A DNA stretch of 64,000 nt from positions 547,875 to 611,874 of the forward strand of contig NW_006920426.1 in assembly GCF_000344685.1 (NCBI RefSeq), given 5' to 3'. Positions 10,897 to 53,232 of the stretch are shown piece after piece; position 1 is the stretch's first letter; each line of letters starts with the position of its first letter. A program made the translations under genes and the position numbers. Under the pieces are notes generated by a model. That model was given only the letters and a program-made list of their open reading frames with translations. It had not been told where the DNA came from and ran no database searches. The stretch comes from Gloeophyllum trabeum ATCC 11539. Lineage: Eukaryota; Basidiomycota; Agaricomycetes; Gloeophyllales; Gloeophyllaceae.

Positions 10897-11043
10897 TCAA
10901 GGTGATACGAAACACAGGTCCGGGCAAGGTCCCTTTGTGGGACATGGTATACATGAAGTAGTAGCGGGCTCCGGAGCAGGGGCAGCAACGGCAATGCTCG
11001 CCAATGCGAGAAGGGCAAGTTGGATGATGCGAGTCGAGAGCAT
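10897..11043 (-). CDS. Small secreted cysteine-rich peptide, divergent member (48 aa)
   Basis: Minus-strand single-exon ORF. I chose the ATG at 11043 because it starts MLSTRIIQLALLALAS, the same N-terminus as the other family members. An in-frame ATG at 11088 lies only about 17 bp from the TATA box and may be upstream of the mRNA start. Residues 1-20 form a hydrophobic secretion signal ending AVAAP. The mature part has four cysteines (C31, C34, C40, C44) in a CIPCPTKGPCPDLC pattern, without the CC pair of most relatives. It ends FVSP, so it may be truncated or spliced at its 3' end. Its function is not known. Confidence 0.7.
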   Translation of the reverse strand: MLSTRIIQLALLALASIAVAAPAPEPATTSCIPCPTKGPCPDLCFVSP

Positions 11044-11104
11044 GGTTAGGTCCTTCGCTGTGCTGCTGAGCTTTGCTTGGGTCTTCATGCTTCGCTCTGA
11101 AGAG

Positions 11105-11113
11105 CCTTTTATA
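11105..11113 (-). promoter_or_regulatory. TATA box of the peptide gene at 10897-11043
   Basis: The minus strand reads TATAAAAGG, about 60 bp upstream of the preferred ATG at 11043. Confidence 0.6.
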
Positions 11114-11843
11114 CTGAAACCACGGTCTGGCCGATCAAGTCATTCCATTCACAATCTACTGACGCCGCTCTCCTAGTGGATGAATCATGAAACGTGTTCC
11201 TGATTGGGCGTGCCAGCCGCGACGCCAGACCAGTCGAAAGGAGACGTCGGGATTGCGTACCACGGTAGCAAACGCTCTAGATGAGCTCAATTACACTTCC
11301 TTGGTTTAGATTTAGAATGAACTGTTCGACCCCTCGCAACTTCAGCGCAACTGAGCATTTTGGGCCCCGGACTTCAAACATTGAATTAGTATTGGCCGCA
11401 AAATTGACGGCAAGCGCGGGTTACATGGCAAGAGTGTGCATCATTCTCTGAGCTTGCATTTTGGTAAGACTGACAACACTCCGCTTCACAGGTCCGTCCA
11501 TATAGGCTACAGCGACAGAAACGCAATCAAGCTCCATAAAGGTACCCCTGAGTCTGATCCGTGTTGCGCCACACGCTGCGGACGATGCATAGCTCCCCGT
11601 ACAAAGAAACACAAAGGCGCCCTGACATCGACCACGAGCGTGGTGGGCACATGGATAAGAATAGATACAGCGGTCAAGTGGGATTTGTGTAGTCCCGAGG
11701 AGGATAGGTGGCTCGAGAAGTCTCCCCACCTAGCGTTCTCCGCGTAAGTGGACAGTCAGTGACAAGGTGTAATGATTTAACAATACATACCGTGTTTCGT
11801 ATATCCATGGAATCCCTCCCTCTCTCCGTCTCTTGTTCAGAGA
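11114..11843. other. Divergent intergenic region between two peptide genes
   Basis: The region separates a minus-strand and a plus-strand peptide gene, so both promoters lie in it. The overlapping ORFs at 11421-11747 on opposite strands have no recognisable domain and are probably chance. I see nothing else. Confidence 0.4.
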
Positions 11844-11845
11844 TG

Positions 11846-11853
11846 ATATAAAG
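11846..11853 (+). promoter_or_regulatory. TATA box of the peptide gene at 11896
   Basis: ATATAAAG, about 44 bp upstream of the ATG. Confidence 0.6.
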
Positions 11854-11895
11854 TCCCCAAGTGTCGAACGATTATGCCTGTTACGCTACGAAAGA

Positions 11896-12063
11896 ATGCG
11901 CACCTTCCTTAGCACCACACTCGCCATCTTAGCTCTAGTTGGATACGCCGCCGCGGCGCCTGGCACGGAGAGCGGTGGTTACAACTGCTGTTGTCAGTCA
12001 ATGGGAACTGCATGTCGAGAGTGCAAACCATGCATCATCCCTCCTCCCGTTGACACCGCTTAA
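11896..12063 (+). CDS. Small secreted cysteine-rich peptide, CCC variant (55 aa)
   Basis: Intronless ORF with ATG at 11896 and stop at 12061-12063. Residues 1-21 are a hydrophobic secretion signal (LSTTLAILALVGYAAAAP). The mature part contains three adjacent cysteines (31-33) and then C40, C43 and C46, i.e. CCC-x6-C-x2-C-x2-C. This is a shifted version of the family pattern CC-x-C...C-x2-C-x-C. The tail is proline-rich and ends PPPVDTA. Length, signal and six-cysteine count match the relatives at 17199, 18075 and 20881, but sequence identity outside the cysteines is low. Function unknown. Confidence 0.75.
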   Translation: MRTFLSTTLAILALVGYAAAAPGTESGGYNCCCQSMGTACRECKPCIIPPPVDTA

Positions 12064-12333
12064 CCGAGAGGTGAGTTGTGTTTACTGTGCTACCGTGATT
12101 TGCTCGCTGACGAACATCTGCGATGTGTTCATGGGTATAGACAAGCTATATCATGATGGCGCAGACTGCGAAAGGAACTCAAACCCAAGTCAAACGTCTC
12201 ATTGACGGAGCACTCATAGCCTTGAATTACTTGTGTCAAACTCAACGTGGCCACTGGCAATCATAAGTGAAAGATCGTTTTCATTCATTGCAGACGTCCT
12301 GTACCGATCTTTGGTACATCCACCGTTGGATTC

Positions 12334-14642
12334 TCAGTTTGTTGGCCATGGAGTGCCATAGGGCCATGCATCGGGCTCCGGCATGACTTTATCCTCCATT
12401 GTGTATGCACCCTCACTCAGAGCTTTCATAACATCCTCTTCCATCCATATAGCCTTCTGTAAAGCCGTATCACGGCCACCCATTGCCATGGCGGAGTGCT
12501 CCCATATGCGCTTCATCTTATCCATGGAGGCGGTGATGCGCTTCATGATGGGAAGAGTGACCCTGAGAGGCGTTCCCGCTTGGAACAGGTTCTCCAGCGC
12601 GCAGTATAAGAACCCTACATACACGTGGTAACCAATGTATAAAGTCATCGTCATCAAAATACGGTGGACAAGAGACCTACAAGCATGCTGCTCATCATCT
12701 TCCGGGTATGTTTCGGCAGCCGCGAGATGGTACTTCGCAGCGTTACGAAAGTGATCATGGACCTCTTCTTTGCTTCGGGCCGTGCTTGACAGTACCATCT
12801 GCTTGTGATAGAACCCCTTCATCCTGCACGTCCGTGAGTCTGCGCCCTGAAAAGGTGAAGACCACTTACGACAGTGCCTGGCCGCGAGGGTAAATAGTGA
12901 AGAACGAGATGAACCCTGGGTCATATTCTATATCTCTCCTCAGAGGGCGCGAAACGACATCTTCAATGATACAGTCGGACTCCTTAAGGATCTCCTTCAA
13001 CTTGTCCATCGACTCATCTCTCGACCTCTTCGAGAGGCCTTCCTGAAAATCCTGCAGCAGACTCATAGCGCGTAAGAACTTACGAGCTCTTCCAGCAACC
13101 TACAATCAAAAGGCGTTCAAGGCGCAGACATCGGACGCCGCGGACGAACGTGTCTTGAAATATTGCGCCTCGTTGATCATCTGGGATTCCAGCCCACTCA
13201 GACCGACCCCACTCCAGGACCTCCAGGGCGCGCCCAAGAAACTCGGGCGCCGATGAGTTGTTCATGCGTACATGACCCTCAATAAATCCTCGCATAATCC
13301 AACCCCTACTCATAAGAATCAGTGAAGCGGCCATGTCTTGCAGCAGAATGGTACTGGTAGTAACCTAATAGTGGTGGCTAACGCAGGGCGTACGTCGTTC
13401 CAGCCCTTCTGACGAAGTCAGGCCAGTGCAGCCTTCTTGACAGCCTGAGGTCCACCCATTGTCCAGGCCTTGAACTGGGACGATTCCATGATCACTGTGA
13501 AGAATGCATGAGACGATATATGATTTCCATATTCATTGCAGAGAAAGAAATACTTTGATCGTTGAAGTATTGCGTCCAGTTAGGATCGTCTATCGTAAAG
13601 GCCCGATGATCTCTCAGGATGCCGTTAGTCAGACTAGTAATGGCCTACATATGCCTGGTTTCCATTCCGAGTTACACAGCGAATGAGATAGACGTACACC
13701 TGTGGCCCCAGCATACGCTACGCCCGCTGGAGTTTGAATCTTCTTCAAAGCTTTCATGGTCTCGACTCCCGTCTTGAACTCCTGTGATTCGGACCGGTCA
13801 GACTGGAAAGCTTCATGCCCAACAACAGTTTCATCTCGTATGCTCCTGATATTACCCAAGCCTGAGTGAAGCCGATGTTGTCAATTTGAAGGAACGCAGC
13901 ATGAAAGAAGCCACGCACACTGCTAGAATAGCCGGCAGGTCCTCGTGCCATCAATTCGGCCTTCATAGATTCAGCTCGTTCCCAAGGTAATTGTCCTTTA
14001 CTTGGGGTCATATGATATCCAGGAATCGAAGAGGACCCTTGCAAGGCTAAGGCAGTTCTAGCCGTACGCAAACCGTTTTCATACTCCTGCAGTTGCTTGA
14101 CTTCGTTGAGACTCATCGAGGAGGGATTCTTGACCTTCATAGCAGCCACGGCTTTCTCCCACGATGCAACACTAGGCGTAAGCTCATGCAGTGCCTGTTC
14201 CCAGTCACTAGTATCATATCATGACTGGGGAAGAAGCAAAGCATGGGAGTTGACCTGTTGCGCCGTCGCCAAACGACCCCAAGCCTTGGCATAACCGGAA
14301 TTATACTTTGTGGCCTGCAGTAATATTTGAAACATTAAGCAGAGTGCTGTTTCATTATCATATTTACGAACTTTACGTGCATCACTGGACGCATCGAGGT
14401 AACTTGCGGCAGGAGTAGATAGGTCGGCACGATGTACCCGAACCATACGGGCGTGTTGGCGAGACCGACCTTTTGAGATACAGAAGACACGCTGCGCGAT
14501 TACCGTACAGTACTGCAACGGCCTCTGGGTCATCATCTCCGGTGGTAGTATCGATCGCCCGCGTGTACTTGGCCTGAGCGGCCTCGTAGTCTCCCCGAGA
14601 GAACAGGGAATTTCCCTCATCTTTCAACTTCGACCAAGACAT
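12334..14642 (-). pseudogene. TPR-domain protein with an in-frame stop (possible pseudogene)
   Basis: About nine exons on the minus strand, from the ATG at 14642 to a stop at 12334. The N-terminus is a clear tetratricopeptide module: SWSKLKDEGNSLFSRGDYEA, then AVLYGNRAACLLYLK, then (across two introns) YNSGYAKAWGRLATAQQ. TPR modules of this kind usually bind other proteins. The long C-terminal part (for example DFQEGLSKRSRDESMDKLK and NLFQAGTPLRVTLPIMKR) has no domain I recognise. The exon reading WTMGGPQAVKKAALA runs into TGA at 13418-13420 and continues in the same frame with LRQKGWNDVRPALATT, which is what a single CGA to TGA change would produce. A 33-nt intron could also remove the stop, but that would be unusually short. 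The rest of the frame and splice sites look intact, so the lesion is recent, an allele, or a sequence error. Confidence 0.7.
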
Positions 14643-15673: not shown

Positions 15674-15870
15674 ATGCACGGAAGCCGCATCCCCGATTTG
15701 CATTTCTGATCCTTGCGGGCGTAGCGTTAACTACACCTGCCGCCACGATTGCAACGGCCAGCCACAGTTTACCGTGCTGTACTTGCGCCGACCCGGGTGA
15801 AGGAGATTCGTGTATCGACGCGGAAGTCGTTCCATGCAAGAAGTGTAATATCAACCTTCAACATATTCAG
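15674..15870 (+). pseudogene. Broken copy of the small secreted cysteine-rich peptide family
   Basis: From about 15694 one frame reads RFAFLILAGVALTTPA, a typical family signal peptide. It is followed by LPCCTCADP, then a spacer and PCKKCNINL. LPCCTC is identical to the relative at 52165. That frame has no ATG: a stop lies upstream, and the only nearby ATG (15674) is in another frame and hits a stop after about ten codons. The frame also does not terminate at the usual place after the last cysteine. The simplest reading is a decayed paralogue with a frameshift in the signal peptide. An unusual splice event is an alternative. Confidence 0.5.
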
Positions 15871-17110: not shown

Positions 17111-17120
17111 CGCGAACACC

Positions 17121-17127: not shown

Positions 17128-17198
17128 GGCCAGCGGTGCTCGCGTGTAACTGCAGCGGAAGCCCGCAGCATATCCTCAGACAAGATTGAATCCCTACA

Positions 17199-17366
17199 AT
17201 GCTAAGCACTCGCCTGTTGACCATCGTCCTCGCCGCCTTCACTGGCTTTGCCTTCGCTACCCCCTCTCCTCAGAACACCGATCTCGCATGCTGCCCGTGC
17301 CCCCCTATGAATCCCAAATTCGGCATTGGACCTGAGTGCCGGGATTGCGGACCCTGCGACGCTTGA
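17199..17366 (+). CDS. Small secreted cysteine-rich peptide, group A (55 aa)
   Basis: Intronless. ATG at 17199, TGA at 17364-17366. Residues 1-21 (MLSTRLLTIVLAAFTGFA...) form a secretion signal with cleavage expected near ATP. The mature peptide is about 34 residues with six cysteines at 31, 32, 34, 47, 50 and 53: ACCPCPPMNPKFG, then GPECRDCGPCDA. The next gene downstream (18075) has all six cysteines at the same positions and shares CCPCPP and NPKFG, so the two are a recent tandem duplicate about 700 bp apart. The protein should be exported. Disulphide pairing or metal binding by CC-x-C and C-x2-C-x2-C are both possible, and no function is known. Confidence 0.85.
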   Translation: MLSTRLLTIVLAAFTGFAFATPSPQNTDLACCPCPPMNPKFGIGPECRDCGPCDA

Positions 17367-17984
17367 TTAAATCCGTACCCTCATTCTGTACGTACCAACG
17401 CCCTTTGACGTTCTCAAGCCGCCCTGATCCCCTCGTAGTCAGCGCCAAAACGCAGACGATGAACACAATAAGGACATGGGCGAAAGAGGAACAGTACCTG
17501 CCAGAGGTCAAAGGAAAATGACGTTCACAAAATATTATGCGCATATGTACTCACTCATCTATGGCCACATAAATTATCTCCCTCCCCTTTCGCTCGTGTA
17601 GTACACTGAATACATTACCGCGGCTCACGCCATCCCAGGATACAAATATTAGTAATGTCCGTACTTGAAACAGCATCGGCGTGCACGTTGTTTCTCTGCT
17701 CGGACAGCATCCCGGAATCCCATCTAGCGTATATACGATAGCCTGTCACTTGATCTCAGAGATACTCCGATCAGCGCCATGGGTTCATCACGATTGGCCA
17801 AGGCTGTACGTACGCGCTGAATCGGAACTCGGTGGGCCCGACGTGACTGGGCGGATCGGTTGTTGGCGAAATAGAGGACAGACGCCACACAATGCACTTA
17901 CGTTGGCGGCGCTGCGGTACCTTAAACCTGATTCACGGGGCGGCCTTGTTCCCTGTACGTGCCCGACAGTAGGATCGCTGAAGA
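17367..17984. other. Spacer between two tandem peptide genes
   Basis: It contains the 3' UTR of one peptide gene and the promoter of the next. No other feature is seen. Confidence 0.4.
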
Positions 17985-18074: not shown

Positions 18075-18242
18075 ATGTTAAACACTCGTGTCCTCTCTTT
18101 TGTCCTCGTCGCCTTCGCAAGCCTCGCTGTCGCGACACCTACCAACGAAGCGAGGGAGCTACCGTGCTGCCCCTGCCCGCCTTTGAACCCGAAATTCGGA
18201 CACGGCCCAGCCTGTCAGCCATGCGGGGTTTGCGATGCTTAA
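18075..18242 (+). CDS. Small secreted cysteine-rich peptide, group A (55 aa)
   Basis: Intronless. The ATG at 18075 is preferred over an upstream in-frame alternative because it begins MLNTRVLSFVLVAFAS, the family start, and lies a normal distance from the TATA box. The signal peptide ends near AVATP. Cysteines are at 31, 32, 34, 47, 50 and 53 (LPCCPCPPLNPKFG, then GPACQPCGVCDA), in exact register with the gene at 17199. Divergence lies mainly in the pro-segment (TNEARE versus SPQNTD), a pattern often seen when mature parts are constrained. Function unknown. Confidence 0.87.
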   Translation: MLNTRVLSFVLVAFASLAVATPTNEARELPCCPCPPLNPKFGHGPACQPCGVCDA

Positions 18243-19147
18243 CAAACGAAGCGTAAGCTGAGAGTATATCTTGGACGAGGGGATTAACTGATGGAAACAC
18301 CAGGAATATTACCCTGATAAAGAAGTAGTTGCTGCGTCGCCGATGGGCGAAAGAGCGGGTAAAGGAGGGCATGCGGTTGTTGAGAGATAATAAACGTCTA
18401 CATCACTATAATGCTGGAATTCATATGCTCCACTTCACATTTGTACGCGACCGGCAATACATGCGACGTAATTCTCCCTATGTTCGAGTGTAAGCCCATG
18501 TACGGCACACAACGCTAGAACAGAGAAGCTCACCATGGATGTATATCGTCCCTAAGCGGTAGTTTAAGTGGTACGTCAGTTTGTAGAAGGCACGAGACAT
18601 GACTGCTTTACGGAGTACACATCCACCATGGGTCGCGCGGATGGCCACATTTCTGTAACGTTGCATCGTATTCAATACCGGCATCTAGAGCTGAAACTTG
18701 TATCGGCTCTCCCATCGATGCGACCTGCGAACCGTCCGCAGTGACCTGCCGCCCCAACACTGGACAGGATCTATACTCAAGGAAGTCGTCCAGACGCAAT
18801 TCACCGGTTACTGGGGGACGAGCATCAGGCACCACAACGGCGATACCGCTGCAAATTTACGCTGCTGCAGCGCCTTACAATGAGTCCATTAAGACGAGTC
18901 TGGTCCCTGAATCTGTGACATATGTATCCGGCTCTGCATCACATCAGAAGGCTGGTGAGTACGAGCGGTACCATAGCATAACTCAGGCACTCACTCAAGC
19001 AGCAACATACATCAAACTCGAGAACGAATCTTCGTCACATCTGCAGGCAGCACGCCGTGTCCCGCGAGTCTAATCCGGTGGTGTCGCAGGCGACATGACC
19101 ACCTTGTCGGACGTTGTCAAACAGTACTATCATTGAGGGGGTTCTGC
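18243..19147. other. Intergenic, nothing recognised
   Basis: Overlapping short ORFs at 18608-19073 on both strands carry no recognisable domain. No RNA gene is seen. Confidence 0.4.
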
Positions 19148-19156
19148 AAAAAGTAT

Positions 19157-19193
19157 ACGAAATGCAATCCTCCCAACAAAGCTGAGGACGCGC
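19157..19193 (+). repeat. Left terminal inverted repeat of the MITE
   Basis: Begins ACGAAATGCAATCCTCCC and ends GAGGACGCGC. It matches the right end with two mismatches. Confidence 0.85.
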
Positions 19194-19856
19194 ATTACGT
19201 AACGGGACCCCGCGCAGCGCGAAGTGTCACTCCGCAGGGCAGCGCGGGGTTGGCTCAGCGGGTTAGCCTATGCTTGGCCGTATATAGATAACAGTAGACA
19301 CTGCAAGCAATATATAAAATTGAATATCTCTACCTGATATGTTCCTGTAGTGTTGATGGTAAGCGTCTTGCCGGGATTGGAAAACCTGAAGCTCGAGGCT
19401 GCGGGTTCGACTCCCAATCCGTTTGTTTCACGCATTGTTGTTTTTTGCCGACGGTTTTTGTCAAGATGTATGCATCATTTGTGAATAAGACTCCTTACTC
19501 TTGGGGCTTCGATTTATTTCATCATCACTCAAGATACACTCCACACCATCCTGATATTATGCTGACAAGCCTGTACTTAGTGCAGGAGAAAACCTTTGAT
19601 ATCAGTGTTTCAAGAGTCACAGCCGCCGCCTGCTGCAACCTCCCTTTTCATCCCAACGAGATTGTAATTCTCAGTACATATCACAAAAGATACTTTGTAT
19701 ACCTCCCTACCTACTCTATGTAAGTATGTATATGCGCCGTTCTGGTGTCGAGACTCGACTTCAAATGGCCTGAGACCGTGGGAACACTGCGCAGACTTGC
19801 CGCACAGCCGTCTGTGCAGTCACTTCACGATGGCCTCGACCTTCCTTTTACGGGCC

Positions 19857-19893
19857 GCGCGTCCTCAACTTTGTTGGGAGGATTGCATTTAGT
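19857..19893 (-). repeat. Right terminal inverted repeat of the MITE
   Basis: The reverse complement begins ACTAAATGCAATCCTCCC. It is followed directly by the second copy of the 9-bp target duplication. Confidence 0.85.
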
Positions 19894-19902
19894 AAAAAGT
19901 AT

Positions 19903-20880
19903 CGAATTCGGCCTGTAGCATTCCGCACACTTGACGGATTCTTACCGGATCTTCCGCATATTGTGTGTAACTTAGTGATGACAGCCGTTTGCAGAACAAT
20001 GGGCCCACTTTTCAAAAATCATTTACAGTCGGACCACGTCGGACAAGCAATTGTAAGTCCCCGAGAGACGGAAACCAGACCATTTGGACTTCCCCACCTT
20101 CTTCCGATGTCCCTGGCACCCACTCCGACCCACTCCGACTATACACGATTTTCTGAATTGGTGGTCTATCGATCTGCAAACGGCTGTAAGAGTGAACCCA
20201 GCGTGTACTGTAGATGCGCCTCCCAATGATCCCTCAGTATAGGTCAGGCTGGAAGCGTTCCGGCAAGCTCCGGCAGAACTCCGGATCCGGCTTAGCTTAG
20301 ACTCGTGTGAGCTGAGTCGTAACCACTTGTACTGGCTGACTGGTATGTATCCTGCACCATATGAATTCGTGAAGTTCGCTCAAATTCGTCTGGGATACTG
20401 TCTCCGATAAGGGCGACCTATGTTTATGCAGCATTTGCAAGCCGTGGCTACATTTCTCAGGCGACAAAGGTGCGAACACAATACTGGATTTATAGGCCTT
20501 AGAGTCGGACTCCTTATCCTCCAAGGGAGCTTCCCGTGTGCTGGTGAGATATTTACTAGTAAACCTTGGAGCGATGCCTCTCCGATCACTACCGTCAATG
20601 GTAGGGTCACCCTGCCCTATCCATTCAAATTGATGCAAGAGCTGTTGAATTGGGCCCGCAATCATGATTTATGAGCTAGGACACCATGCTAATCGATCGT
20701 TCCAATTAGATATGTCCCTGGCTAAGAACGCTGCTGCTCGCCTCTCCGTCCCCCTCTGCCCTATCCGCCCGTAGTAATGCATTGTGGCTTTATATGACCA
20801 GGAAGCTTCCAATATCCACTGGGTCTGATTAGCGCTGCAACAATGCTCAGTGCAGATGTTGCGTACCCGTAAGGCAGACT
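19903..20880. other. Intergenic, nothing recognised
   Basis: Overlapping ORFs at 20297-20674 on both strands have no recognisable domain. The 3' UTR of the minus-strand peptide gene is at the right edge. Confidence 0.35.
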
Positions 20881-21045
20881 TCAGTTCTCAGGGCACGCGC
20901 ACTCCTGACAGGCAGGACCGTGACCGTCAATGGGCGGCAACGGCGGGCAAGGGCAACATGGTAGGTTGCTCTGAGGCTCGGGGGCGGCAAAGGCCGTAGC
21001 AACCAGAGCGAAGAGGGTGAGCGTGATGATACGAGTGCTGAACAT
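20881..21045 (-). CDS. Small secreted cysteine-rich peptide, group A (54 aa)
   Basis: Intronless, minus strand. The ATG at 21045 starts MFSTRIITLTLFALVATAFA, and the stop is at 20881-20883. A more upstream in-frame codon exists, but it lies closer to the TATA box and does not match the family start. The signal ends near AAP. Cysteines are at 30, 31, 33, 46, 49 and 51: LPCCPCPPLPP, then GHGPACQECACPEN. The GHGPAC segment is shared with the gene at 18075, while the C-x2-C-x-C ending is like group B, so this member bridges the two groups. Function unknown. Confidence 0.85.
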   Translation of the reverse strand: MFSTRIITLTLFALVATAFAAPEPQSNLPCCPCPPLPPIDGHGPACQECACPEN

Positions 21046-32885: not shown

Positions 32886-35169
32886 TCACGATATCTGCAC
32901 GCCCAACCTGTAGATGTCTGGCGCCCAAGCGGAGGGATTGGCAAATTCGACCGTATTATTCTTCCCAGGCTTAAAACCACCCAGCGTCACCAGATATCCT
33001 TCAAACAAGATATCCCGGCTCTGCACTCCGACTCAGCATGACCTCCCTCAGTCTGAAGAGGCAGTAAAACTCACCTGGCCTGAGAGCGGCATCTGCACCT
33101 GCTGCGCCGGCCCGCCGTTGACGCTGACGAACGCGTTGCGGCAGTTCGAGCAGTCCGTGTTGCGCATCGTGTAGTCCGCGTTGATGTAGTCTATAGACAC
33201 CAGCTTGGACCCGCCCGACGACCCGCCGTCAACGCCGGTGAACGTGAGGGTGCCGCCGTTGCCGATGTCGCCGACTACGGTGACGGATGAGTTCGCGGTG
33301 CGGGGGGAGGCGCCGCCGGATAGGGTGTTTTTGGACGCGGAGGCGGGGTAGTAGGTGAAGCGTGGTGCAGGGGATGGAGTTGTGTGGGAGAGGCGGAGGA
33401 CGAGCGGGCCGTGGGCCGAGATGTTGGTCGTGTAGCTGTAAGAGGTGCACTCGCGTAAAAAGGGCGAGAAGGAAATGGTGCACGTGGTGACGGGCATACC
33501 TGTTTCTTATTATCCCCAGGTCTTTGCCGGACCAGAGGTCGGTGGCCTTTGCTGAGGTAAAGCCGACGTCGGAGAGGTTGAAGGTCAGAGATCGGGACTG
33601 GTTCTTCCAATTCAGTACCACTGGGCGAATGAAAGTAGTCGTAGTTAGTCATAGTATGCCGCAGCTTTACAAGCGGTCGCATGCTTACAGGCAACGGTGG
33701 ACCCATCTGCGAGGGGACCTGACCAAACGTCATAATCATTAGTGTATCGGCGTTGGAAGCTGATGGATTTGCCGAGGTCATCTTGCTGTTGCAATCCCTG
33801 CTGTCAGCATTGGTTCTCGCAAATGTTTCCAAGGCTCTTACATTCAGCGCAATTATCCTCTTGTTCCCTAGAATATCCAAAGTATCCTGGCTCGGCCTCG
33901 ACAGGTCAGTCGAAATCAGTAGCGGTGACCTGGTCCAGGCTTCCTGTCGGCAAAGCCATCCTTAGGGCTCACTTAGGCATAACTCTACTGACTTGATAGC
34001 TGCCCAGAACGAAAAGTGGCTCTTCTGCTCTGGCACAGTCATCTCCGCATTCCCGACCTCAAGCAGATCCAGATCGTTCCAAGCGCCGGGCCCCGCGAAG
34101 CCCGTGATCGGGACGACCTGGTTGATGATCCGCAGGACGTTGTCCCAGGAGTTTGGCGGGCCAATGTCGTTCCTATAGCACAGCAACAGTGGGTATGCAG
34201 AATTGGCATGTGAGTAACGGAGGATGATCTCTGGACATACGAGATGCGCCAGGAGTTGCCAACTGCGGGTGCCCAGCGCGCAGGATCTTGGACACCCCAT
34301 TCACAGACTGAGTAGACAACTGGGCGCGAGGTACGGGAGAGTGCATCGCGCATCGCAGTAAAGTGAGGCTGCCGACGGTCAATTCAGTTCAGCACATCAG
34401 CATAAATATGATTTCGGACGTACTTCAAGGTTGAACGGCGGATTGTAGTCGACAAAGTCAGTCTCGTTCACAGAGTAACAATTGTCATACTTCCACACAC
34501 AGGTTATTATTGGATCTCATTTACGGTCTTGGACAAACGTACCTTGAGATAGTCTGCGCCCCAGCTCGTGAAAGCAGCTGCGTCGGCAGCTTCGTGACCG
34601 AGGCTACCTAACCAGTGCGCAGCTCCGTTCACGAAGTCACAGGAATAGTATCCCCTACATCAATCTTAAGCCGGACGTATATGAATTCCGTCGATAAATG
34701 ACGTACGCATCGCTGTATACTCCGAATTTCAGGCCGAGACTGTGGACGTACGATCCTAGTGCAGGAACGCCAGATGGAATACGAGTGGTGTTCCACGTGA
34801 AAGTACCGTTGGCTGTGCGGTTGGTTCCTTGCCATCCACAGTCACTTGAATCGGGTGTAAGTGCAGTGCTTCAGCCGCGATATAAGCGGGGAGCTCACAG
34901 ATTGAAGTAGTTGTACCCTACGGAGGGAAGCGCGGATGCCACGAGGTCCTTCGCGGCAGCACGGTACTGGGATTCATCCGTGTCGCATCTGGGAGAAATC
35001 CAGTGATTTCCATGCGTACGCGCTTCATAAGCGTGAAGACATACAGGAAGACGTTATACGGATTCCATCCCATAGGCGGTTTCACTGCCAACCCATTGTG
35101 CAACGCGAGGATTGCGTGGATGAAGCAGGCAGTCGATATGATAGACAAAGGGACTCTCATGGTGAACAT
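32886..35169 (-). CDS. Secreted GH27 alpha-galactosidase with C-terminal CBM35-like module
   Basis: Hydrolyses terminal alpha-galactosyl groups, for example of galactomannan or raffinose sugars, outside the cell. Many exons run from the ATG at 35169 to TGA at 32886-32888. The signal peptide is MRVPLSIISTACFIHAILA. The GH27 barrel follows: NGLAVKPPMGWNPYNVFLCD (across intron 1), YNYFNLDCGWQG, FGVYSDAGYYSCDF, nucleophile strand WGADYLKYDNCY, VVYSVCEWGVQDPARWAP, WRISNDIGPP, and acid/base strand GFAGPGAWNDLDLLEVGN. Both catalytic aspartates (YDN and NDLD) are present. A beta-sandwich domain is followed by about 140 residues resembling a CBM35 galactose-binding fold (RFTYYPASASKN, GDIGNGGTLTF, FEGYLVTLGGFKPGKNN). 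An alternative ATG three codons downstream is equally compatible with secretion. Confidence 0.93.
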
Positions 35170-41707: not shown

Positions 41708-41935
41708 CGTGAAGCTTCGAGGGCGAAAAGCCTGCTTGCGACGCACGGCAGTCACAGCGCTGGTGATAGCGATATATGAACGAAGCGTTACGGCGATGGA
41801 CTGGATAATAGCGTTGTATTGTGTAGAGTTGCAGGCTCAGCGCTGTCCGTGTACGCGTCCGCGCGCGTCGGACGAAGAGTGCGGGGAAAGAGTTCGGAAA
41901 CGCGGTCCGGAGCTCCGAACTGCCTATTGAGTCTA

Positions 41936-43496
41936 CAGTGGCGGACAAAAGTATCTGCACTGCCGCATCTTCGGGGGAAAAGCGGCTGTCTTTGTCTCGT
42001 AGCTTACACTTTCATTCCAGAAATTGTATGTACATGAAGATAGTCTAATATACTACCTTCCCCACCAATTTTATGGGGTGGCAGCTTGGAGGATTATGAG
42101 CCAGGGAGTCATTATGCCTCGACGTGTGACAAGAGTGACTGTCACAGCGCTGTTTCCGTCGACAACCGACCGAATCCTACCCTCAACTTGACTCCCCTGC
42201 CCGAACTTTGCTCACATACAGACTCTCTATGACCTACACATCACCATCCAAATGTGGCAGGATCGTCGAACTCTACAACTCTGGGTGCAAAGCCGATGAC
42301 ATTGCGAAGCGGTTCAGCATCTCAAAGCGGGCCATGTTCGACATCGTCAAACGTTACAAGACTACTGGGAGTTGCTATCCCCGTCCCAAATCAGGCCGTC
42401 CAAGGAAGCTCACACCCCAGGACTGCAAATTTGCTGCCCAGTTGCTTGACAGAGGCCGGTGCCGTAATGCCGTCGACCTGCGGGACAACTACTTTGAACA
42501 TGTCACTGCCCGGACTGTTCGCCGTGCCTTGCACGAGGAAGGACTTCATGCTAGGGTTCGTAGGAAGGTCCCCTTCCTGAATGCCAAGCATCGGGCTGCC
42601 AGGTGGGCTTGGGCGCGTTGTGTTGCAGGTTGGAGTGTGGGGGTCTGGAAACGGGTCATTTTCTCAGATGAGTCCAAATTCAATTTATTCACTTCGGATG
42701 GGCGGGATTATTGTTGGAGGAGGCCAGGAGATGCAATCCAGGAGCGGTATACCCAGAAGACCTGGAAGCATGGTGGTGGGCATGTGATGGTGTGGGGATG
42801 CATGACGTGGAAGGGCGTTGGGCGTCTTGTTTGGATCGAGGGAACCATGACAGCAACAGAGTATGTCCAGATTCTTCAAGGACAGCTTCTAGGGACCATG
42901 TCGGACTATAGGATGAACCCCCGGCATTTTATCTTCCAGCAGGACAATGATCCAAAGCACCGCTCACACCTTGCCTGAACCTGGTTCGAAGATAATCTTG
43001 TCCGTGTTCTCCCCTGGCCAGCTCAAAGTCCCGACATGAACATCATTGAGCATCTATGGGACCACCTCAAGCGGAAAGTACAAGCCTGAGACCCAGCTCC
43101 CAAGAATCTAGATGAGCTTTGGGCTGCGATTGTGGAGGAGTGGTACCGGATTGATGTCGCCACAGTACGCCACCTATACTCGAGCTTACCCCGGAGGGCC
43201 CTGGCTCTGAAGAAGGCTAAGGGTGCTAATACAAAGTACTAAATCAGGTCAGTCATTCAGGCCGAGAATTATTTTTTATAAATTTATTGATTCCATCTAA
43301 CCAGTTCTGAGGGTACCGGGTTCGAGATGAATTTACCTCCTGGAAGCAAGGAATGGGGCATCTAGGGCTGAAAGTCTGTATGCATTTATCTTACATAGAG
43401 TAGTTACAAATCATGAATATACATCGATCCATGTTGCCCCCGATCTGCCCAGAACCGTGAAAGTGGTGGCAGTGCAGATACTTTTGTCCGCCACTG
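41936..43496 (+). mobile_element. Tc1/mariner (DD34E) DNA transposon, 1561 bp
   Basis: Perfectly identical 29-bp inverted ends (41936-41964 and 43468-43496, outer end CAGTGGCGGACAAAAGTATC) are flanked by TA on each side (41934-41935 and 43497-43498). TA target choice and duplication are the rule for this superfamily. Inside is one transposase frame with two stops. Identical ends suggest a recent insertion or mobilisation by another copy. The insertion lies 228 bp upstream of the NTA1-like start codon. Confidence 0.95.
42229..43242 (+). pseudogene. Tc1-type transposase, broken by two in-frame TGA codons
   Basis: The ATG at 42229 starts MTYTSPSKCGRIVELYNSG. A helix-turn-helix region (KADDIAKRFSISKRAMFDIV) is followed by the GRPRKL linker typical of Tc1 transposases and a second HTH (TARTVRRALHEEGL). 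The catalytic core has all three acidic residues: D in FSDESKFNLF, D in FQQDNDPKHRS and E in [13 protein letters not shown], with 34 positions between the last two. The frame runs 337 codons to TAA at 43240-43242 but is interrupted by TGA at 42976-42978 and 43087-43089. Everything else is in frame, so decay is recent and this copy is probably unable to make its own enzyme. Confidence 0.93.
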
Positions 43497-43713
43497 TAAA
43501 ATACTGACGTGCAAGTCGACTCGTATATCAACGATGCATTCTCAGCGCGTCCATAGCTAGGGACATAGTCCATCCAAATACGTCGATGATTATATTCAGA
43601 TGAATAAAAAATCCTCATGATAGCAGGACAACAGATTTCGGCCTTAACAAGCTTTCATCCTTGCACGTCTCCTAGAACGTATATCTCCCGGTGTTCCCTT
43701 CTTCATCCTTTAT

Positions 43714-44172
43714 TTACAGCTCGACGACAACGCAGCCAATGGAAATGAGAGAGCCTAAGGTGGAGATAAATCAACACCGTCCCATAAACAGATCGAACGC
43801 GACGATGATAAATCTTACCATAAGAGTTATTCTCGCAACAAACGGGATGCGCATCGCTACAACATAGCTTGTTAGTTGACCAACCCGACTTCAAAAGTAA
43901 TTCTAGTTTTACCAGGTGCTACCGCTCCCGATGCCGACGACGTTGATGGGGGAGCAGGTCAGACCGACGAGGGCCGTCACGTCCTGCAGGACAACTCCGA
44001 GGGAGCCGAGGATGGTGGCGGCAGCGGGGTCGTTCGCCTGCGTGACGGTGTTGCAGCACTGGATGGGGCCGGTGGTGCATTGCCCGGCAGGCTCAGTGCC
44101 AGTGGGGGTAGGCGTGGCGGCAGCAAGGATGCTGAGGGCGGACACTGCGAATAGCGAGAGCTTGGAGAACAT
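43714..44172 (-). CDS. Class I hydrophobin (112 aa)
   Basis: Secreted amphipathic protein that coats aerial hyphae and spores at air-water interfaces. Three exons (43913-44172, 43819-43856, 43714-43754). The signal peptide is MFSKLSLFAVSALSILAAATP. The eight cysteines follow the class I pattern: C-x6-CC (QCTTGPIQCC), a long loop to LTC, C-x13-C (LTCSPINVVGIGSGSTC), C-x5-CC (CDAHPVCC) and a last GC (SIGCVVVEL). Joining across intron 1 gives STCDAHPVCCENNSYG, close to the basidiomycete consensus, so the splice sites are well supported. An ACATAAAATC word about 85 bp upstream may be the TATA element. Confidence 0.95.
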
Positions 44173-45495
44173 GCTGCTTGATGGAGTCGAAGGCACGCTG
44201 TGGTGAGAGGACTTGGGATGGGACAGCGACTGCGGGCATCCTGATTTTATGTGTGAAGGGTTCACAGGGACGATGAAATGACCAGTTCGGTACCGCCAAG
44301 GCTCATCAATGCCTACGTATTCCCGCTATGTTTGCGGACTCTGTGCCTTGCCTATGTCCACCGCAGTGTACATTTTCGGAATACAGACGTTCAAGTGGAG
44401 CTCCGAGATTTTGCAGTGGGAATCGAGGGTGAGCACGAGGGTCGTACCAAGCGTCGACCGCGCTGTAAGGTACAGCGGTGGAGAGCGAAGACTGGCTCTG
44501 CTCCACGAACCTCCTCCTGTTGCAAGGTACGTCTTCTTGCAACGATCCTCCGAAAGGCAATCTCTATGTTGTATATCTACTCCAGACGTCATCAATCAAG
44601 CTGGTGATAGAGTACACATAGACGCACCGTTTAATTCAGGCGTTCCTCATGATCAGAGCGGGATCAGCAAAGCGTTACCAAGGCGGTCACTGGACCGTGC
44701 TATGACCGTGTCCTCATGAGAATGCCAGAGTCATAAAGCGAGCAGTACCTGCACCATCAATTGCGATGAAAGGGAGGGTAATGCGTTTCCCATGTCCAGC
44801 CCGCGTGCCTACGTTAATGAATGGGGGAGGACAAATTTGCTCCGCATTATTTGACTACCCGTGAGGGATGGTGATGGAGGTGAAGCAGAGAAAAAGTTTT
44901 TTTTTCTTTCTTTTTTTGCTGATGGTTGTTGTCGGTGCAATGGTATACATAACTTCTGTTAGAAGGATTCACCAGTTGACCAACGAGTTGGCGGAAGCAA
45001 ATAGGGCACTTGAAGCTGCGTACGTAAGCAGGCGTAAGCGAGGCGTTGAGTTCCAAAACGGGTGATTCCTGTGGACGTCGGATTCTGCGTTGTCGCCCAA
45101 TGGTTCCCCTCTCCTCGCATCTTGCCACACACGGTGATACAGCAACAAAGACTGGCCAACGGTCTCGAGTCTCTGAGTATCTGGGCCACATTTCAATGTG
45201 GTCTGTTTGCGGAAGGAGTCTATCGATGCGACCGGCGTCCGAGACGTGTCTGTCATAGTCTTCGCTCAAGATTGTATGCCTATGCTTCGAATTCACCATG
45301 CCCAAGTTGCAGTGTATGTTATACACATGGTAAATTATTCTTCGCCGATGCAGCTATGTACAGTAGCGCCGCTGCTGTTGCTGTCTCGTCTTCTCCAGTT
45401 CCATATCTTCCAAGAACTCTAGATCTCGTCAGCCAGGCTGGTCTCTGTCTGAACTGTATATTTACCTTCGATCGAAATTCCAGACCATTACACGG
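44173..45495. other. Intergenic between hydrophobin and peptide gene
   Basis: Overlapping ORFs on both strands (44306-44719, 44847-45326, 45062-45601) show no domain. The one at 44868-45065 has a membrane-like start and is discussed under rejected items. Nothing is supportable. Confidence 0.35.
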
Positions 45496-45681
45496 TCACA
45501 GAGGGCAAACACATATCTGGCAGTTTGCGCCGGGCTCGATCACGATCCGTTTTGCTATGCTTGGAGAAACTGTATATATACGACACGGGCAGCACGGGTA
45601 GGTCGTCGCTTCCTGAGCCGAGGTGTATGCCAACACGGCCAATATTGGAAGAACGAATGCGAAGCTGCGCACGCTGGCCAT
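45496..45681 (-). CDS. Small secreted cysteine-rich peptide, group B (61 aa)
   Basis: Intronless, minus strand, ATG at 45681. The signal peptide is MASVRSFAFVLPILAVLAYT with cleavage near SAQ. The mature part has six cysteines at 30, 31, 33, 54, 57 and 59: YPCCPCR, a 20-residue spacer, then NCQICVCPL. The CPL ending and the C-x2-C-x-C signature are shared with the genes at 52165 and 53041, which have similarly long central spacers. A TATA-like word (TATAAG, 45738-45743) lies about 57 bp upstream. Its N-terminus differs most from the family start. Function unknown. Confidence 0.82.
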   Translation of the reverse strand: MASVRSFAFVLPILAVLAYTSAQEATTYPCCPCRIYTVSPSIAKRIVIEPGANCQICVCPL

Positions 45682-46786: not shown

Positions 46787-47002
46787 TTAAACCGTCTCGA
46801 TTGGGCAGTTGCATTGCTGACGGACGTGCAGGGGTGTCGTCGGCGAACAGTGGCATGTTTGAACGGGCTCGATAGGACAGTGGCAAATCTGGCGCGCTCG
46901 AATCGCCGGTGGGGCAGAGCAATCGCATGTCGGGGTGGGTGTGGCCATGGCGATACCTGCCAATGCGACGGTGAAAGAGATGAGAACACTGAAGCTGCGC
47001 AT
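46787..47002 (-). CDS. Secreted peptide with four CxC repeats (71 aa)
   Basis: Intronless, minus strand, ATG at 47002 and TAA at 46787-46789. The signal peptide is MRSFSVLISFTVALAGIAMA, cleaved near ATP as in the neighbouring family. The mature part is built of repeats: CDCSAPPAIRARQI, CHCPIEPVQT, CHCSPTTPLHVRQQ, CNCPIETV. That is two alternating units, each starting C-x-C, with CPIE[PT]V recurring. Eight cysteines in four C-x-C pairs suggest metal binding or a ladder of disulphides. Both are inference. It could be an internally duplicated relative of the CC-x-C family or a separate invention with the same signal. Confidence 0.75.
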   Translation of the reverse strand: MRSFSVLISFTVALAGIAMATPTPTCDCSAPPAIRARQICHCPIEPVQTCHCSPTTPLHVRQQCNCPIETV

Positions 47003-47060
47003 GTGTGTCGATTGTCTCTGAAGAGGGACGCTTGAATGCTACCTTTGCTTTCTCTGCTCC

Positions 47061-47070
47061 CCTTTATAAG
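47061..47070 (-). promoter_or_regulatory. TATA box of the CxC-repeat peptide gene
   Basis: The minus strand reads CTTATAAAGG, about 60 bp upstream of the ATG. Confidence 0.6.
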
Positions 47071-48391: not shown

Positions 48392-48398
48392 GTATAAA
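48392..48398 (+). promoter_or_regulatory. TATA box of the SnoaL-like gene
   Basis: TATAAAA, about 70 bp upstream of the ATG at 48465. Confidence 0.55.
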
Positions 48399-48464
48399 AT
48401 CCCCAATGAATCCTACAGAGCATACTCCCACACCCCGTTCACGCATACCACCAGCACAACCAAT

Positions 48465-49125: not shown

Positions 49126-50661
49126 TCGATTATCGCATGTATTAGTATCGGGCATCGGAATCTTACAGGACGGTTTTCTCTTACTGTAGCACTTGTCAGA
49201 GGAATACATTGATGTGTAGTCTCATTTCCACCGGCGACAGGATATTATGTATCTCGGAGATGCATCGAAGTTAACATGAAGAGTGCAAGCTGCCTCGCAT
49301 TACAGTACACATCATTGACATTTGTTCGTGAAATGGACTACGTTGCTGAGAAATTCGCCCAAGTCCATAATAATCAACGTCCATCCTCTGTCCATTCTGA
49401 TATTAGTCCGTCTGCTCGAATAGAATATTCTTCCCTTGCTCGCATCTTGAATGAATATCAGACATTCACAGGGACACAGCCGAGAGAGATATTCCAGGTG
49501 GCAGAAACCAAGCATTAGCGAATGTAGGTTGCAGACCCAAACTTCGAGATAACGAACGTACCGTCTCAGCCTCCCAATGTCTGTCTCTGTAATATTATTC
49601 AAAGGACTCAGGAGTCTCTCCGAGACATTGGCAGGTTGCGCTTGACTTCGAAGCGTCTTGTCTTGCTCGTATCACAGCCTATTGAAGAGTAACACGTTGT
49701 AGCTCAAGTCCTAGTGCCAATGAGGCCGCCGAATGAATAACGCTTAGAGGTCTATGAAACCCCCCCTCCCTCTTGCTCTGATCTCAAAGTGATTTCTATT
49801 TTCTTATATGTTTCGTTCGCCGTTCCCGAGTCAACCGATGAGACACCCCGGACTCCACATACTTATATAGGTCGTGAAAGGCACAAAACGGAGTAATGAC
49901 TTCATTACGGCAAGACGGATGAATATGTTCGCCTCTGCAAACCATCGCGGGTTCTACATGGCCTGCGTATTGCGAATTCTGCTGTTAGTCAACTTGAAGG
50001 TCAAGTCACCTGGATGCTGGCTGCGGCACCACTTTTTTAGTCTTGTCAGGTGGTGGAGCACCAGAGACATGATGGTCGCCGAGTTTCCACCAGTGAATGT
50101 GGATCACACAGACCCTAAGAACGTGCATTGAAATTCATCCTCGAACCAGCGCAGTTCATCCTATTATTTTGAGCGTGGGGAGCAAGGGCACATATGCATT
50201 GGGAACCCTTAAGCATGGCTCCCGGGCGCGAAACGTTCCAATTCAGTTTGAACTTCAAGGGATTGTTGTTCGTGCTGACGCACGTGCAGTGGCACCAAGT
50301 TCGTGGCACTAGGCAGTATTTGCTTCATCTGGAAGAAGCAGGGAACACTAAATAACAAGAGCCACACAAGCAGCTTACTTTGCTGCCCCATTGCCACCGC
50401 AATGATTGGGAGGTGAGCCAGCTGTTCATCCAGAATCTGAATATGCAATAGAATGACGGGTACCTAGCACCCCCGACCTTCAGGAGATGTCCTCTCTCTG
50501 CGTTACGGTCGAAACTAATCCGGACTCTTCGGTACGCACATTCCAGGAACGCAAATTCTCGCACTGAGGGCGCTAATTCGATACGGGAGAACGGCGAGAA
50601 TGCGTGACAGACATAGGATATAACGTCGTGGACTATATGTCACAACTGACTTGCTTAAACG
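49126..50661. other. Intergenic, nothing recognised
   Basis: Several short ORFs without domains on both strands. No TATA-ATG pair with a signal peptide was found apart from the gene at 50727. Confidence 0.35.
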
Positions 50662-50667
50662 TATAAA
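50662..50667 (+). promoter_or_regulatory. TATA box of the peptide gene at 50727
   Basis: TATAAA, about 60 bp upstream of the ATG. Confidence 0.6.
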
Positions 50668-50726
50668 GATCGGGCCGTTCAGCAAAATAACGCAAGCCAC
50701 ATACAACGGCTTACCAGACCCTCGAG

Positions 50727-50894
50727 ATGTTCACCACCCGCCTGGCAGGATTATTGCTCGTCGCAGTCGCTGCCATAGTTTCTGTCAGCGCTGTAGCCCT
50801 ACCCGAACCGTCACCGTATTGCTGCCCGTGCCCTCCTATCAAGTACGGTGTTGGCCCTGTCTGCACGGTATGCGAGGTGTGCAATGCTGAGTGA
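50727..50894 (+). CDS. Small secreted cysteine-rich peptide, group A (55 aa)
   Basis: Intronless. ATG at 50727, TGA at 50892-50894. It starts MFTTRLAGLLLVAVAAIV, the family N-terminus, with cleavage expected around SAVALP. Cysteines are at 32, 33, 35, 46, 49 and 52: YCCPCPPIKYGVGPV, then CTVCEVCNAE. The spacer between the CC-x-C block and the C-x2-C-x2-C block is ten residues, the shortest of group A. This is the only group A member in the second cluster, 30-33 kb from the others, so the two clusters are of mixed type. Function unknown. Confidence 0.85.
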   Translation: MFTTRLAGLLLVAVAAIVSVSAVALPEPSPYCCPCPPIKYGVGPVCTVCEVCNAE

Positions 50895-52120
50895 AAATAT
50901 GCCGATGTAAGTGCTCGTTACGTTGCAAACAGTGACCCTTACTGATTCTCGAGCGTTCCTCCGGTCCAGTCAGTCTACTTCGAAACAGTCCTCATAACGG
51001 TCGAGTAGGCAGGAAACAGGTGGTACGGACAAGCACGGCGCACCGGCGGCGGTGTCTGCGGACTGAAAAATATGTATCAGCAAGACTGACCCTCATACGT
51101 GGACCTGTAACATGCATTCGCTCCTTGGAGTAATTTTTGTACATCTGCCGGCATAAAACGTCCGATGCAAGTGCCAATACATTTGACTTGAAGCGGCGGT
51201 TGAATGGTAATCGGGAGATCGAACGGTATAAAACGATATTGTACCGAAGGGAATAGTACCTTGCCCCGCCGTACATTGTCTTCGAAGCCCAGTTCGAGCA
51301 TTACTGAATTGCCCTGCCAACATGCTCCTTAACATCAAGGTACGCAAGTGAGACGGCACAGTTTCTGGACGGGTGGTCCGCGCCGAGCGGAGAACACCTT
51401 GATATTGGATCGCCCGAGGAAGGCAATGCTGCATTCGCCCTTGTACCGTGGCGGAATCGAGGTACGACTTTACCGCAGCCAAACTAGCCAGCGTGAGGTG
51501 AAATTGGGTGCCTGTGGCGTTCTATTCAAGATTCAACGGTATGACGTGTACGCATCACAATGTCATCGGTAATCTGCCATTGAGTGGTAGATGCTACCAA
51601 ATGTTCATCAACACCCGCTCATATCATAGCCCGGTTGCCGTAGATTAGCTCACCTGGTATGGAGCTCACTGAAACAGATATACTGCTCTTGGTGCACCTG
51701 TACCAAATGAGAACCGAGGCGTCGGTGGCAATCCCTGGGACAGAGTGTCTAACTGGCCGTTGACATATGCAGTAACAAAGCCTTCACGAGAGCATTCCTG
51801 CGAAAGCGTACCTGAATATCTCAATGCAATGTATATGAATAATACGTCGTCGGGTGCAGTGCCATCCAGAGTCATTGCGAGACTTGCACGGTTCGCACTC
51901 CGGATAATGCATTCTTGTCGGTCGAAGACACGTTTGGATGCGCTTTTGTGCCTGGATCAACTTGACATTCGCCAGCGGTAGTGCCATGGGAAGTCGCTAA
52001 CGATGGCCGTGAGCACTAGGAAATTCATGTCATTTTCCATAGGCAGCGTTGGAATGGGAGCACGGGTATAATACGCATCGGCTAGCTCCGGCAAAGTAGC
52101 AGTTGACGCAGCGCGCGGAC
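50895..52120. other. Intergenic, nothing recognised
   Basis: Overlapping minus- and plus-strand ORFs (51093-51572, 51666-51987) lack domains. The promoter of the next peptide gene is at the right edge. Confidence 0.35.
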
Positions 52121-52128
52121 TATATAAG
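52121..52128 (+). promoter_or_regulatory. TATA box of the peptide gene at 52165
   Basis: TATATAAG, about 40 bp upstream of the ATG. Confidence 0.65.
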
Positions 52129-52164
52129 TCGAGAGCGAATACGGATACTTATTTACTCACCAAC

Positions 52165-52353
52165 ATGTTCACAGCGCACTGTCTTCGAATCATGTTGCTC
52201 GCTCTCGCTGGCCTTGCGCTGGCAACTCCAGCTCCGGTGACTACGGCAGTGCTGCCATGCTGTACTTGCCCTCCAGGCCCTACAATTGCAACCATACCAA
52301 TCGAGGCACACGCCATATCCCGGCATTGTCAGACCTGCGCGTGTCCCCTATAA
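52165..52353 (+). CDS. Small secreted cysteine-rich peptide, group B (62 aa)
   Basis: Intronless. Signal peptide MFTAHCLRIMLLALAGLALA, cleaved near ATP. The six mature cysteines are at 32, 33, 35, 55, 58 and 60: LPCCTCPPGP, a 19-residue spacer containing ATIPIEAHAISR, then HCQTCACPL. It pairs with the gene at 53041 less than 1 kb downstream (same strand, same CCxCPPGP and CACPL ends), a second tandem duplicate in the window. There is an extra cysteine (C6) in the signal peptide. LPCCTC also appears in the broken copy at 15674. Function unknown. Confidence 0.86.
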   Translation: MFTAHCLRIMLLALAGLALATPAPVTTAVLPCCTCPPGPTIATIPIEAHAISRHCQTCACPL

Positions 52354-52983
52354 GGGTACGCTGGAGATATGAATTAATTGCGACGATGGACGATAACATA
52401 AACGGAAATTCGTTTTCAGCTTACACTTGAAAGCCATGGGCCGCAAACAGTATCGAGGGGTTATGGGGAGAGGATTGCCTGAGAATAAAGAAGATTTACA
52501 AGCACGCACCCGTCCGTTGATTGCAGAGTATCCGCAGACGCTTGCTTGTAATTCTATACTATTCGACCGTATGAGCAGAGTACCACTATCGAGCGTGTCA
52601 ACAATGCCGGACGAACCTGTTGATAGACTACGCACCAGCGCGGCAGGGGACGTGTGATCGTTCTGTTGCGAACGACTCGCAGACTCGCAGACTCGCAAGT
52701 TGCGTTAGTCTTTGGCAGAATCCGCAATGGGAAATGTCATGGTTGGCCACAAGCTCAGTGCGCCCATGCGTCTCGAACCCCCATCGATCGACACTTGCGA
52801 GAGAATCCACCTGCCGCAGATACGCTGGCCCGAGTTCTCTCAGGTCCGTGCTGGTGAAACACAGTGTCAGTCATTCTTCACGCACTAGCGACTAGTCACT
52901 TCGCACCGTAGGTCCATCATAGTCGGAGATATCAAAGGGGACCAGTCAATCTATAGATGCCTCTCTAGGTGCACTTGCTAGGG
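52354..52983. other. Spacer between two tandem peptide genes
   Basis: No supportable feature apart from the promoter at its right end. A short GACTCGCA direct repeat lies near 52674-52696. Confidence 0.4.
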
Positions 52984-52996
52984 ATATATATAAAAG
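52984..52996 (+). promoter_or_regulatory. TATA box of the peptide gene at 53041
   Basis: ATATATATAAAAG, about 45 bp upstream of the ATG. It is the strongest TATA match in the family. Confidence 0.7.
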
Positions 52997-53040
52997 CCCG
53001 CCAGCTCAGGTAGAGACTAAGAAACAAGAACCACACAAAC

Positions 53041-53232
53041 ATGCTCACCACCCGTCTTACGCAAATACTGCTAATCGCCATGGCAGGCTTCGCAGCAGCC
53101 TCCCCGGCATCCGAAACACCAGTACCAACTTTGCGCCCCTGCTGCTGGTGTCCTCCAGGCCCTGTCCGAGCGGGACCTCAGCCGACACCAGTCATTATCC
53201 CGAACTGCCGGCCGTGTGCATGCCCGTTATAA
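53041..53232 (+). CDS. Small secreted cysteine-rich peptide, group B (63 aa)
   Basis: Intronless. MLTTRLTQILLIAMAGFAAA forms the signal, cleaved near ASP. Cysteines are at 34, 35, 37, 56, 59 and 61: RPCCWCPPGPVRAGP, then NCRPCACPL. The 5' end (ATGCTCACCACCCGTCT) is very like that of the gene at 50727 (ATGTTCACCACCCGCCT), which shows that the MxTTR start is conserved at DNA level too. The spacer is Pro/Val/Ile-rich and differs from the neighbouring copy, whereas the cysteine blocks hardly change. Function unknown. Confidence 0.87.
   Translation: MLTTRLTQILLIAMAGFAAASPASETPVPTLRPCCWCPPGPVRAGPQPTPVIIPNCRPCACPL

Follow-up and report, generated by a model that had tools for sequence, protein, structure and literature searches.

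In the present study, we analysed a window of 64,000 nucleotides from Gloeophyllum trabeum ATCC 11539 (contig NW_006920426.1, here C17, positions 547875-611874; the window means this whole stretch), and compared ten short genes for cysteine-rich peptides in it with one another and with the 35.5-Mb genome of 34 contigs. With moderate confidence we read these genes as a family of secreted miniproteins, folded by disulphides, that is old, turns over slowly and would act outside the cell. The genes are listed below with their positions in the window, and each is called by its first coordinate; distances of the TATA box are counted from the start codon, and those of the splice donor from the stop codon.

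10897-11043, reverse strand: peptide gene, 48 amino acids, four cysteines in the mature part; TATA -70; donor GTGAGT 16 nucleotides past stop
11896-12063, forward strand: peptide gene, 55 amino acids, CCC...CxxCxxC; TATA -49; donor GTGAGT 7 nucleotides past stop
17199-17366, forward strand: peptide gene, 55 amino acids, group A (CCPCPP...GPEC); TATA -78; 76% identical to the Heliocybe relative
18075-18242, forward strand: peptide gene, 55 amino acids, group A; TATA -89
20881-21045, reverse strand: peptide gene, 54 amino acids, bridge between groups A and B; TATA -58; donor GTACGC 14 nucleotides past stop
45496-45681, reverse strand: peptide gene, 61 amino acids, group B (ends CVCPL); TATA -62; no GTRNGY donor; placed by its cysteine pattern
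46787-47002, reverse strand: peptide gene, 71 amino acids, eight cysteines; TATA -66; donor GTAAGT 1 nucleotide past stop
50727-50894, forward strand: peptide gene, 55 amino acids, group A; TATA -65; donor GTAAGT 12 nucleotides past stop
52165-52353, forward strand: peptide gene, 62 amino acids, group B; TATATA -44 and TATAAT -98; donor GTACGC 2 nucleotides past stop
53041-53232, forward strand: peptide gene, 63 amino acids, group B; TATA -56; donor GTACGT immediately past stop

Layout of the peptides and their nearest relative

All ten open reading frames (ORFs) named in a preliminary description of this DNA are present, encode 48-71 amino acids and lie on both strands. The secretion signal ascribed to them was found in 10 of 10 with our own heuristic (not SignalP), which looks for a hydrophobic stretch with a cut site resembling A-x-A; the mature part that follows is rich in cysteine. 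The pattern CC-x-C...C-x2-C-x(1,2)-C is common to seven of the ten, as had been claimed, and is also exact in a protein of Heliocybe sulcata; it was not found in 10897, in 46787 or in a further copy on contig C14. The gene 11896, a CCC...C-x2-C-x2-C variant with the same C-terminal triad, is an eighth near-match, and the eight cysteines of 46787 stand in two modules (CxC...CxCPIE) that were judged similar by eye. The loop between the two cysteine triads measures 6-20 residues. Across the ten window peptides and the C14 copy, the mature part holds 4, 6 or 8 cysteines, always an even number (six in the Heliocybe protein), and its net charge runs from -4 to +2, being negative in 7 of these 11. 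The division into group A (CCPCPP and GPxC) and group B (CxCPL) is as described, except that 20881 combines CCPCPP with CACP and bridges both.

When an alignment of seven genes was searched against 5.8 billion predicted proteins, one match was listed, the hypothetical protein OE88DRAFT_1657220 of Heliocybe sulcata (1 among 964 candidates, E ≤1). This protein has 55 amino acids and the same signal and is 76% identical to 17199; no structural difference was seen between them, and it is unnamed and carries no precomputed Pfam domain. Random substitution of cysteines in relatives had been named as a sign against a family, and in this sole relative found six of the six are kept. The alignment of 46787, 11896 and 10897 gave no match among 32 candidates (E ≤10). 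Because the matches listed include no protein of the window itself, this genome seems not to be included in that protein database; Neolentinus is represented there, and no Neolentinus copy of the family was listed. The UniRef label of the Heliocybe protein, "CBM1 domain-containing", was considered and set aside as unsupported, as the ten window paralogues, on which the Pfam scan was run in place of the Heliocybe protein itself, gave no Pfam match.

A common gene plan

Nine of the ten genes have a similar arrangement at both ends. Between -110 and -40, where the hexamers TATAAA, TATATA, TATAAG and TATAAT were counted, a TATA hexamer precedes the start codon in 10 of 10 genes (44-98 nucleotides upstream), against 4.3% of random 70-base stretches of the window; for 52165 the hexamer counted is TATAAT at -98, and TATATA at -44 overlaps the edge of the region. 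Since the upstream regions of five genes had been inspected before the hexamers were chosen, an unbiased k-mer count was added, and TATAAA was its top k-mer, present in 8 of 11 upstream regions including that of the C14 copy and in 4.1% of 2000 random regions (p 1.2e-9, 4125 hexamers). Ten of these 11 genes also have a purine at -3.

At the other end, a splice donor of the form GTRNGY lies 0-21 nucleotides past the stop codon in nine of the ten window genes, and in 10 of 11 when the C14 copy (4 nucleotides) is included, while a donor within about 25 nucleotides of the stop was found in 75 of 668 control ORFs. A complete intron by our own rule (donor, branch-like site and YAG at 42-95 nucleotides) could be drawn for 7 of the 11 genes and for 16 of the 668 control ORFs. 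Both comparisons are conservative because the control ORFs contain the family genes themselves. We infer that an intron in the 3' untranslated region (3'-UTR) may be common to the family by descent, and its predicted positions are as follows.

10839-10880, reverse strand: predicted 3'-UTR intron of 10897 (donor, branch-like site, CAG)
12071-12140, forward strand: predicted 3'-UTR intron of 11896 (sequence rule)
17388-17438, forward strand: predicted 3'-UTR intron of 17199 (GTACGT 21 nucleotides past stop, branch-like site, TAG)
18253-18303, forward strand: predicted 3'-UTR intron of 18075 (donor GTAAGC 10 nucleotides past stop)
20819-20866, reverse strand: predicted 3'-UTR intron of 20881 (sequence rule)
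50907-50969, forward strand: predicted 3'-UTR intron of 50727 (sequence rule)
53233-53294, forward strand: predicted 3'-UTR intron of 53041 (sequence rule)

Selection and age of the pairs

For the selection analysis we used the seven core genes, leaving out 46787, 11896 and 10897; cross-group pairs are less certain here owing to alignment gaps. The proportion of nonsynonymous differences (pN) was below that of synonymous differences (pS) in 21 of 21 pairs, and the ratio of the corresponding rates (dN/dS) was 0.19-0.53 in 10 pairs, with dS saturated in the other 11. These counts indicate purifying selection on the seven core genes. Between 17199 and 18075, the differences at the three codon positions number 18, 10 and 33, and all six cysteines are kept. 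A loosely constrained loop between fixed cysteine triads would fit the spacings observed.

The pairs 17199/18075 and 52165/53041 had been taken for recent tandem duplicates, and this part of the preliminary description has to be given up. Their synonymous sites are saturated (pS 0.77 and pN 0.24 for the first pair, pS 0.80 and pN 0.32 for the second), and the scores of the 300-base-pair flanks of both pairs fall inside the range obtained with shuffles; for 17199/18075, for example, the downstream flank scores 26, with a shuffle mean of 18 and a maximum of 33. Judged by this divergence, both pairs are adjacent but old. As 17199 is closer to the Heliocybe protein (76%) than to 18075 (60%), the duplication that gave rise to this pair is probably older than the split of the Gloeophyllum and Heliocybe lineages.

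The same counts bear on the idea that the peptides are host-manipulating effectors engaged in an arms race, against which purifying selection argues. Heliocybe and Neolentinus, the nearest relatives found, are moreover wood decayers without a living host. The usual description of an effector as small, secreted and cysteine-rich (PMC4759460, PMC7105643) does fit the ten; on balance we regard this role as very unlikely.

Genes or chance reading frames

We also considered that the ten might be chance ORFs, and scanned for signal-like ORFs of 38-110 amino acids with at least 4 cysteines in the mature part (loose version) or at least 10% cysteine (dense version). In the 64 kb of the window, the loose scan gave 11 hits, which are the ten genes and a hydrophobin exon, and the dense scan gave 10. 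The two flanks of 50 kb (100,000 bases together) contained 5 ORFs that passed the loose scan and none that passed the dense one, and 28 loci elsewhere in the genome (90,571 bases) gave none of either kind. Ten mononucleotide shuffles yielded 4 loose hits in total, and 50 two-mer shuffles yielded 11 at 10% cysteine in total. When the window was reversed but not complemented, 7 ORFs passed the loose scan and 4 the dense one, none of them with a TATA box; small frames with a signal and cysteines thus do arise randomly, and the composition scan is supportive rather than decisive. For this reason, the claim that the ten are genes is carried by the TATA box, the splice donor and the selection evidence. 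The finding of just one relative among database proteins might be added in favour of chance, but the TATA box in all ten, the donor in nine, the bias between codon positions and the Heliocybe relative leave this explanation with almost no credence, and we take the ten ORFs on these sequence features to be real genes and not random frames.

Extent of the family and its place among named families

Pairwise matches with E-values of about 0.001 or better link 17199, 18075, 20881, 50727, 52165, 53041 and 10897, the last recovered with 18075 as the query (E 8.7e-4) mostly across the signal part. Sequence therefore supports a common origin for at least seven of the ten; the remaining three (45496, 11896 and 46787) would be tied to the family by cysteine pattern or gene plan. 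The genome was searched with single-protein queries from eight window genes (all except 17199 and 50727) and from the C14 copy, and with one DNA pattern. The preliminary description had spoken of a family in two clusters. Two groups do flank an unrelated block, but one further copy was found outside, at 314326-314490 of contig C14: it encodes 54 amino acids with six cysteines and a CxCxC start, has a TATA box at -66 and a donor 4 nucleotides past the stop. It matches the family weakly (E 0.19, and 0.023-0.038 in the return search), so that the gene plan carries this assignment. Beyond the window, no other convincing paralogue was found in the 35.5-Mb genome, where diverged copies could be missed.

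Inside the first cluster, a probable relic of a family gene was recognised by its match to 52165 (55% across part of it), which has a weak E-value of 0.29 but lies within the cluster.

15694-15846, forward strand: probable decayed copy (signal-like stretch, CCxC, CxxC, no in-frame methionine)

The CCxCPP DNA pattern matched 26 places in the genome, 6 of which are family genes in the window, and the reversed control pattern matched 9; the other 20 frames showed no family layout by eye, although a signal in a separate exon would escape such reading. There was also a weak match on contig C4 (E 0.095), and a match on contig C8 (E 0.17) was rejected after its frame was read and found unlike the family.

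The absence of a named family, proposed earlier, is borne out in the three places searched. In Pfam, none of the ten matched any family at E ≤1, though matches of very low score may be lost in the filters of HMMER; the sequences of the PDB gave two matches at E of about 1, which are not meaningful; and no literature report was found on CCPCPP, on Gloeophyllales small secreted proteins or on six-cysteine basidiomycete peptides. Hydrophobins (PF01185) are likewise secreted and cysteine-rich, and one lies inside the interval at 43912-44325, but the ten differ from them in cysteine layout (4-8 cysteines) and gave no match to PF01185 at E ≤1. A broader likeness is to the fungal class of small secreted proteins (SSPs), which have a signal-peptide-like start, are short and cysteine-rich and are without a known domain. 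Most members of this class are well above 60 amino acids. All ten genes fall within it when it is defined by fewer than 300 amino acids, at least 5% cysteine and a signal by our heuristic, a size limit of about 300 amino acids being given in PMC4759460; however, the class is operational and is not one homologous family. Pleurotus ostreatus, a wood-decay basidiomycete, has a family of several genes for small secreted proteins, ssp1-6 (PMC10705924), but their products are of about 18 kDa (PMC7105643), and the likeness noted here is one of description. The ten thus make up an apparently unnamed family inside the well-known broad class of small secreted cysteine-rich proteins, and its unusual points are size, the common stop-proximal intron signal and age.

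Possible mode of action

In the mechanism that we propose, each gene would be transcribed from its own TATA promoter into a short messenger RNA in which a 3'-UTR intron follows closely on the coding part. The encoded peptide would enter the secretory route and lose its signal by cleavage near A-x-A, and the mature part, about 28-51 residues long, would fold by oxidation; the even counts (4, 6 and 8) suggest that the cysteines are paired. In the common six-cysteine form, three disulphides would tie the CCxC triad at the N-terminal end to the CxxCx(1,2)C triad at the C-terminal end and close a loop rich in proline and glycine, of the length given above. Because this loop varies, it is the likely contact surface. 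Secretion, cleavage, disulphides, intron and role are all steps that we infer. An endogenous extracellular role, such as at the hyphal surface, in development or in cell-to-cell signalling, is favoured over host attack, with low certainty as to which of these it is.

Release of the peptides as antimicrobials or against competitors was weighed as well. Wood fungi compete with microbes, and small, cysteine-paired, clustered peptides with gene birth and decay (the relic at 15694) would suit such a use. The near-neutral charge argues against cationic lysis, selection between paralogues is purifying and not diversifying, and the Pfam families without a match at E ≤1 include defensins, peptide toxins and inhibitors; we consider this role unlikely. 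Extracellular metal-thiolate chelators of copper, zinc or iron, similar to metallothioneins, could be imagined from the CxC and CxxC motifs, from the presence of up to 8 cysteines in 51 residues and from the duplicated CxC module of 46787. But the peptides are probably secreted into an oxidising space, their even cysteine counts are those that disulphides would require and argue against metal binding, and there was no Pfam match of any kind in the ten, so that chelation appears distinctly unlikely. Mating pheromone-like peptides would also be short, secreted and present in several copies. However, the C-terminal CaaX box of pheromones is absent in 10 of 10, all 33 matches to the STE3 receptor fall on contig C6 and none on C17, and basidiomycete pheromone precursors are not known to have a classical signal peptide; the pheromone role is extremely improbable, and the related idea that the window is a mating locus was rejected, as STE3 matches occur on C6 only.

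Several observations weigh against the reading of the ten as secreted disulphide-folded miniproteins of one family. In the single-sequence search 45496 had no paralogue in its own genome, and it has no consensus donor; 11896 and 46787 had no significant sequence match in the genome and are placed by gene plan and general layout. The donors of 46787, 52165 and the C14 copy fail the full intron rule. The even cysteine counts are partly inherited and so not independent of one another, the cut sites were placed by eye, and 52165 carries a seventh cysteine inside its signal. The AlphaFold model of the full-length peptide is poor (predicted local distance difference test, pLDDT, 62; predicted template modelling score, pTM, 0.23) and shows only the signal helix, and that of the mature part is poorer (pLDDT 52, pTM 0.14), so that neither supports a disulphide pattern or a fold. 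Secretion, splicing and the peptide product are predicted from the DNA letters, and nothing observed singles out one extracellular role.

More tentatively, we suggest that the genes may represent a Gloeophyllales-like family of disulphide miniproteins, largely hidden by their size from gene prediction, kept under one gene plan and diverged chiefly in the loop, which could serve as endogenous signals or surface ligands with an undescribed fold; this fuller account is possible but doubtful. Genes so short are easily lost in annotation, as one relative listed from 5.8 billion predicted proteins illustrates, and if other wood-decay fungi have the family too, a class of peptides is absent from secretome counts. 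The gene plan of TATA box, prepeptide and donor just past the stop may offer a practical route to finding such genes. The synonymous saturation shows that a family of this kind can be old and protected, whereas small secreted proteins are commonly pictured as young and quick to change.

Surrounding region

The block between the two groups of peptide genes was said to be unrelated to them, and our reading agrees: it holds a GCD14-like transfer RNA methyltransferase, a transglutaminase-like protein, a Tc1/mariner-type element and the hydrophobin, with no shared pathway suggested. The hydrophobin exon (43912-44325, reverse strand; PF01185, E 8.8e-14) lies near the second peptide group. The Tc1/mariner-type element spans 41934-43498, with a transposase ORF at 42229-42978 and terminal inverted repeats of 38 nucleotides that are 92% complementary. 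Amid the peptide genes, at 19156-19894, about 740 base pairs lie between inverted repeats of 52 nucleotides (85%), possibly a short non-autonomous element. A signal-like exon with a TATA box is found at 34918-35160 on the reverse strand, and its start seems to resemble that of an alpha-galactosidase. At 54409-54886 there are five degenerate copies of a 53-nucleotide direct repeat, the other four being 60-79% identical to the reference copy.

For the neighbouring gene at 55048-56247, the matches listed at E ≤1e-60 (7992 scored) include Neolentinus lepideus (78% over 45% of the query), Jaapia argillacea (67% over 45%) and one unnamed sequence (53% over 68%). Outside the window, the 33 STE3 pheromone receptor exon matches lie within about 62 kb at 371218-433089 of contig C6 and form a large receptor array.

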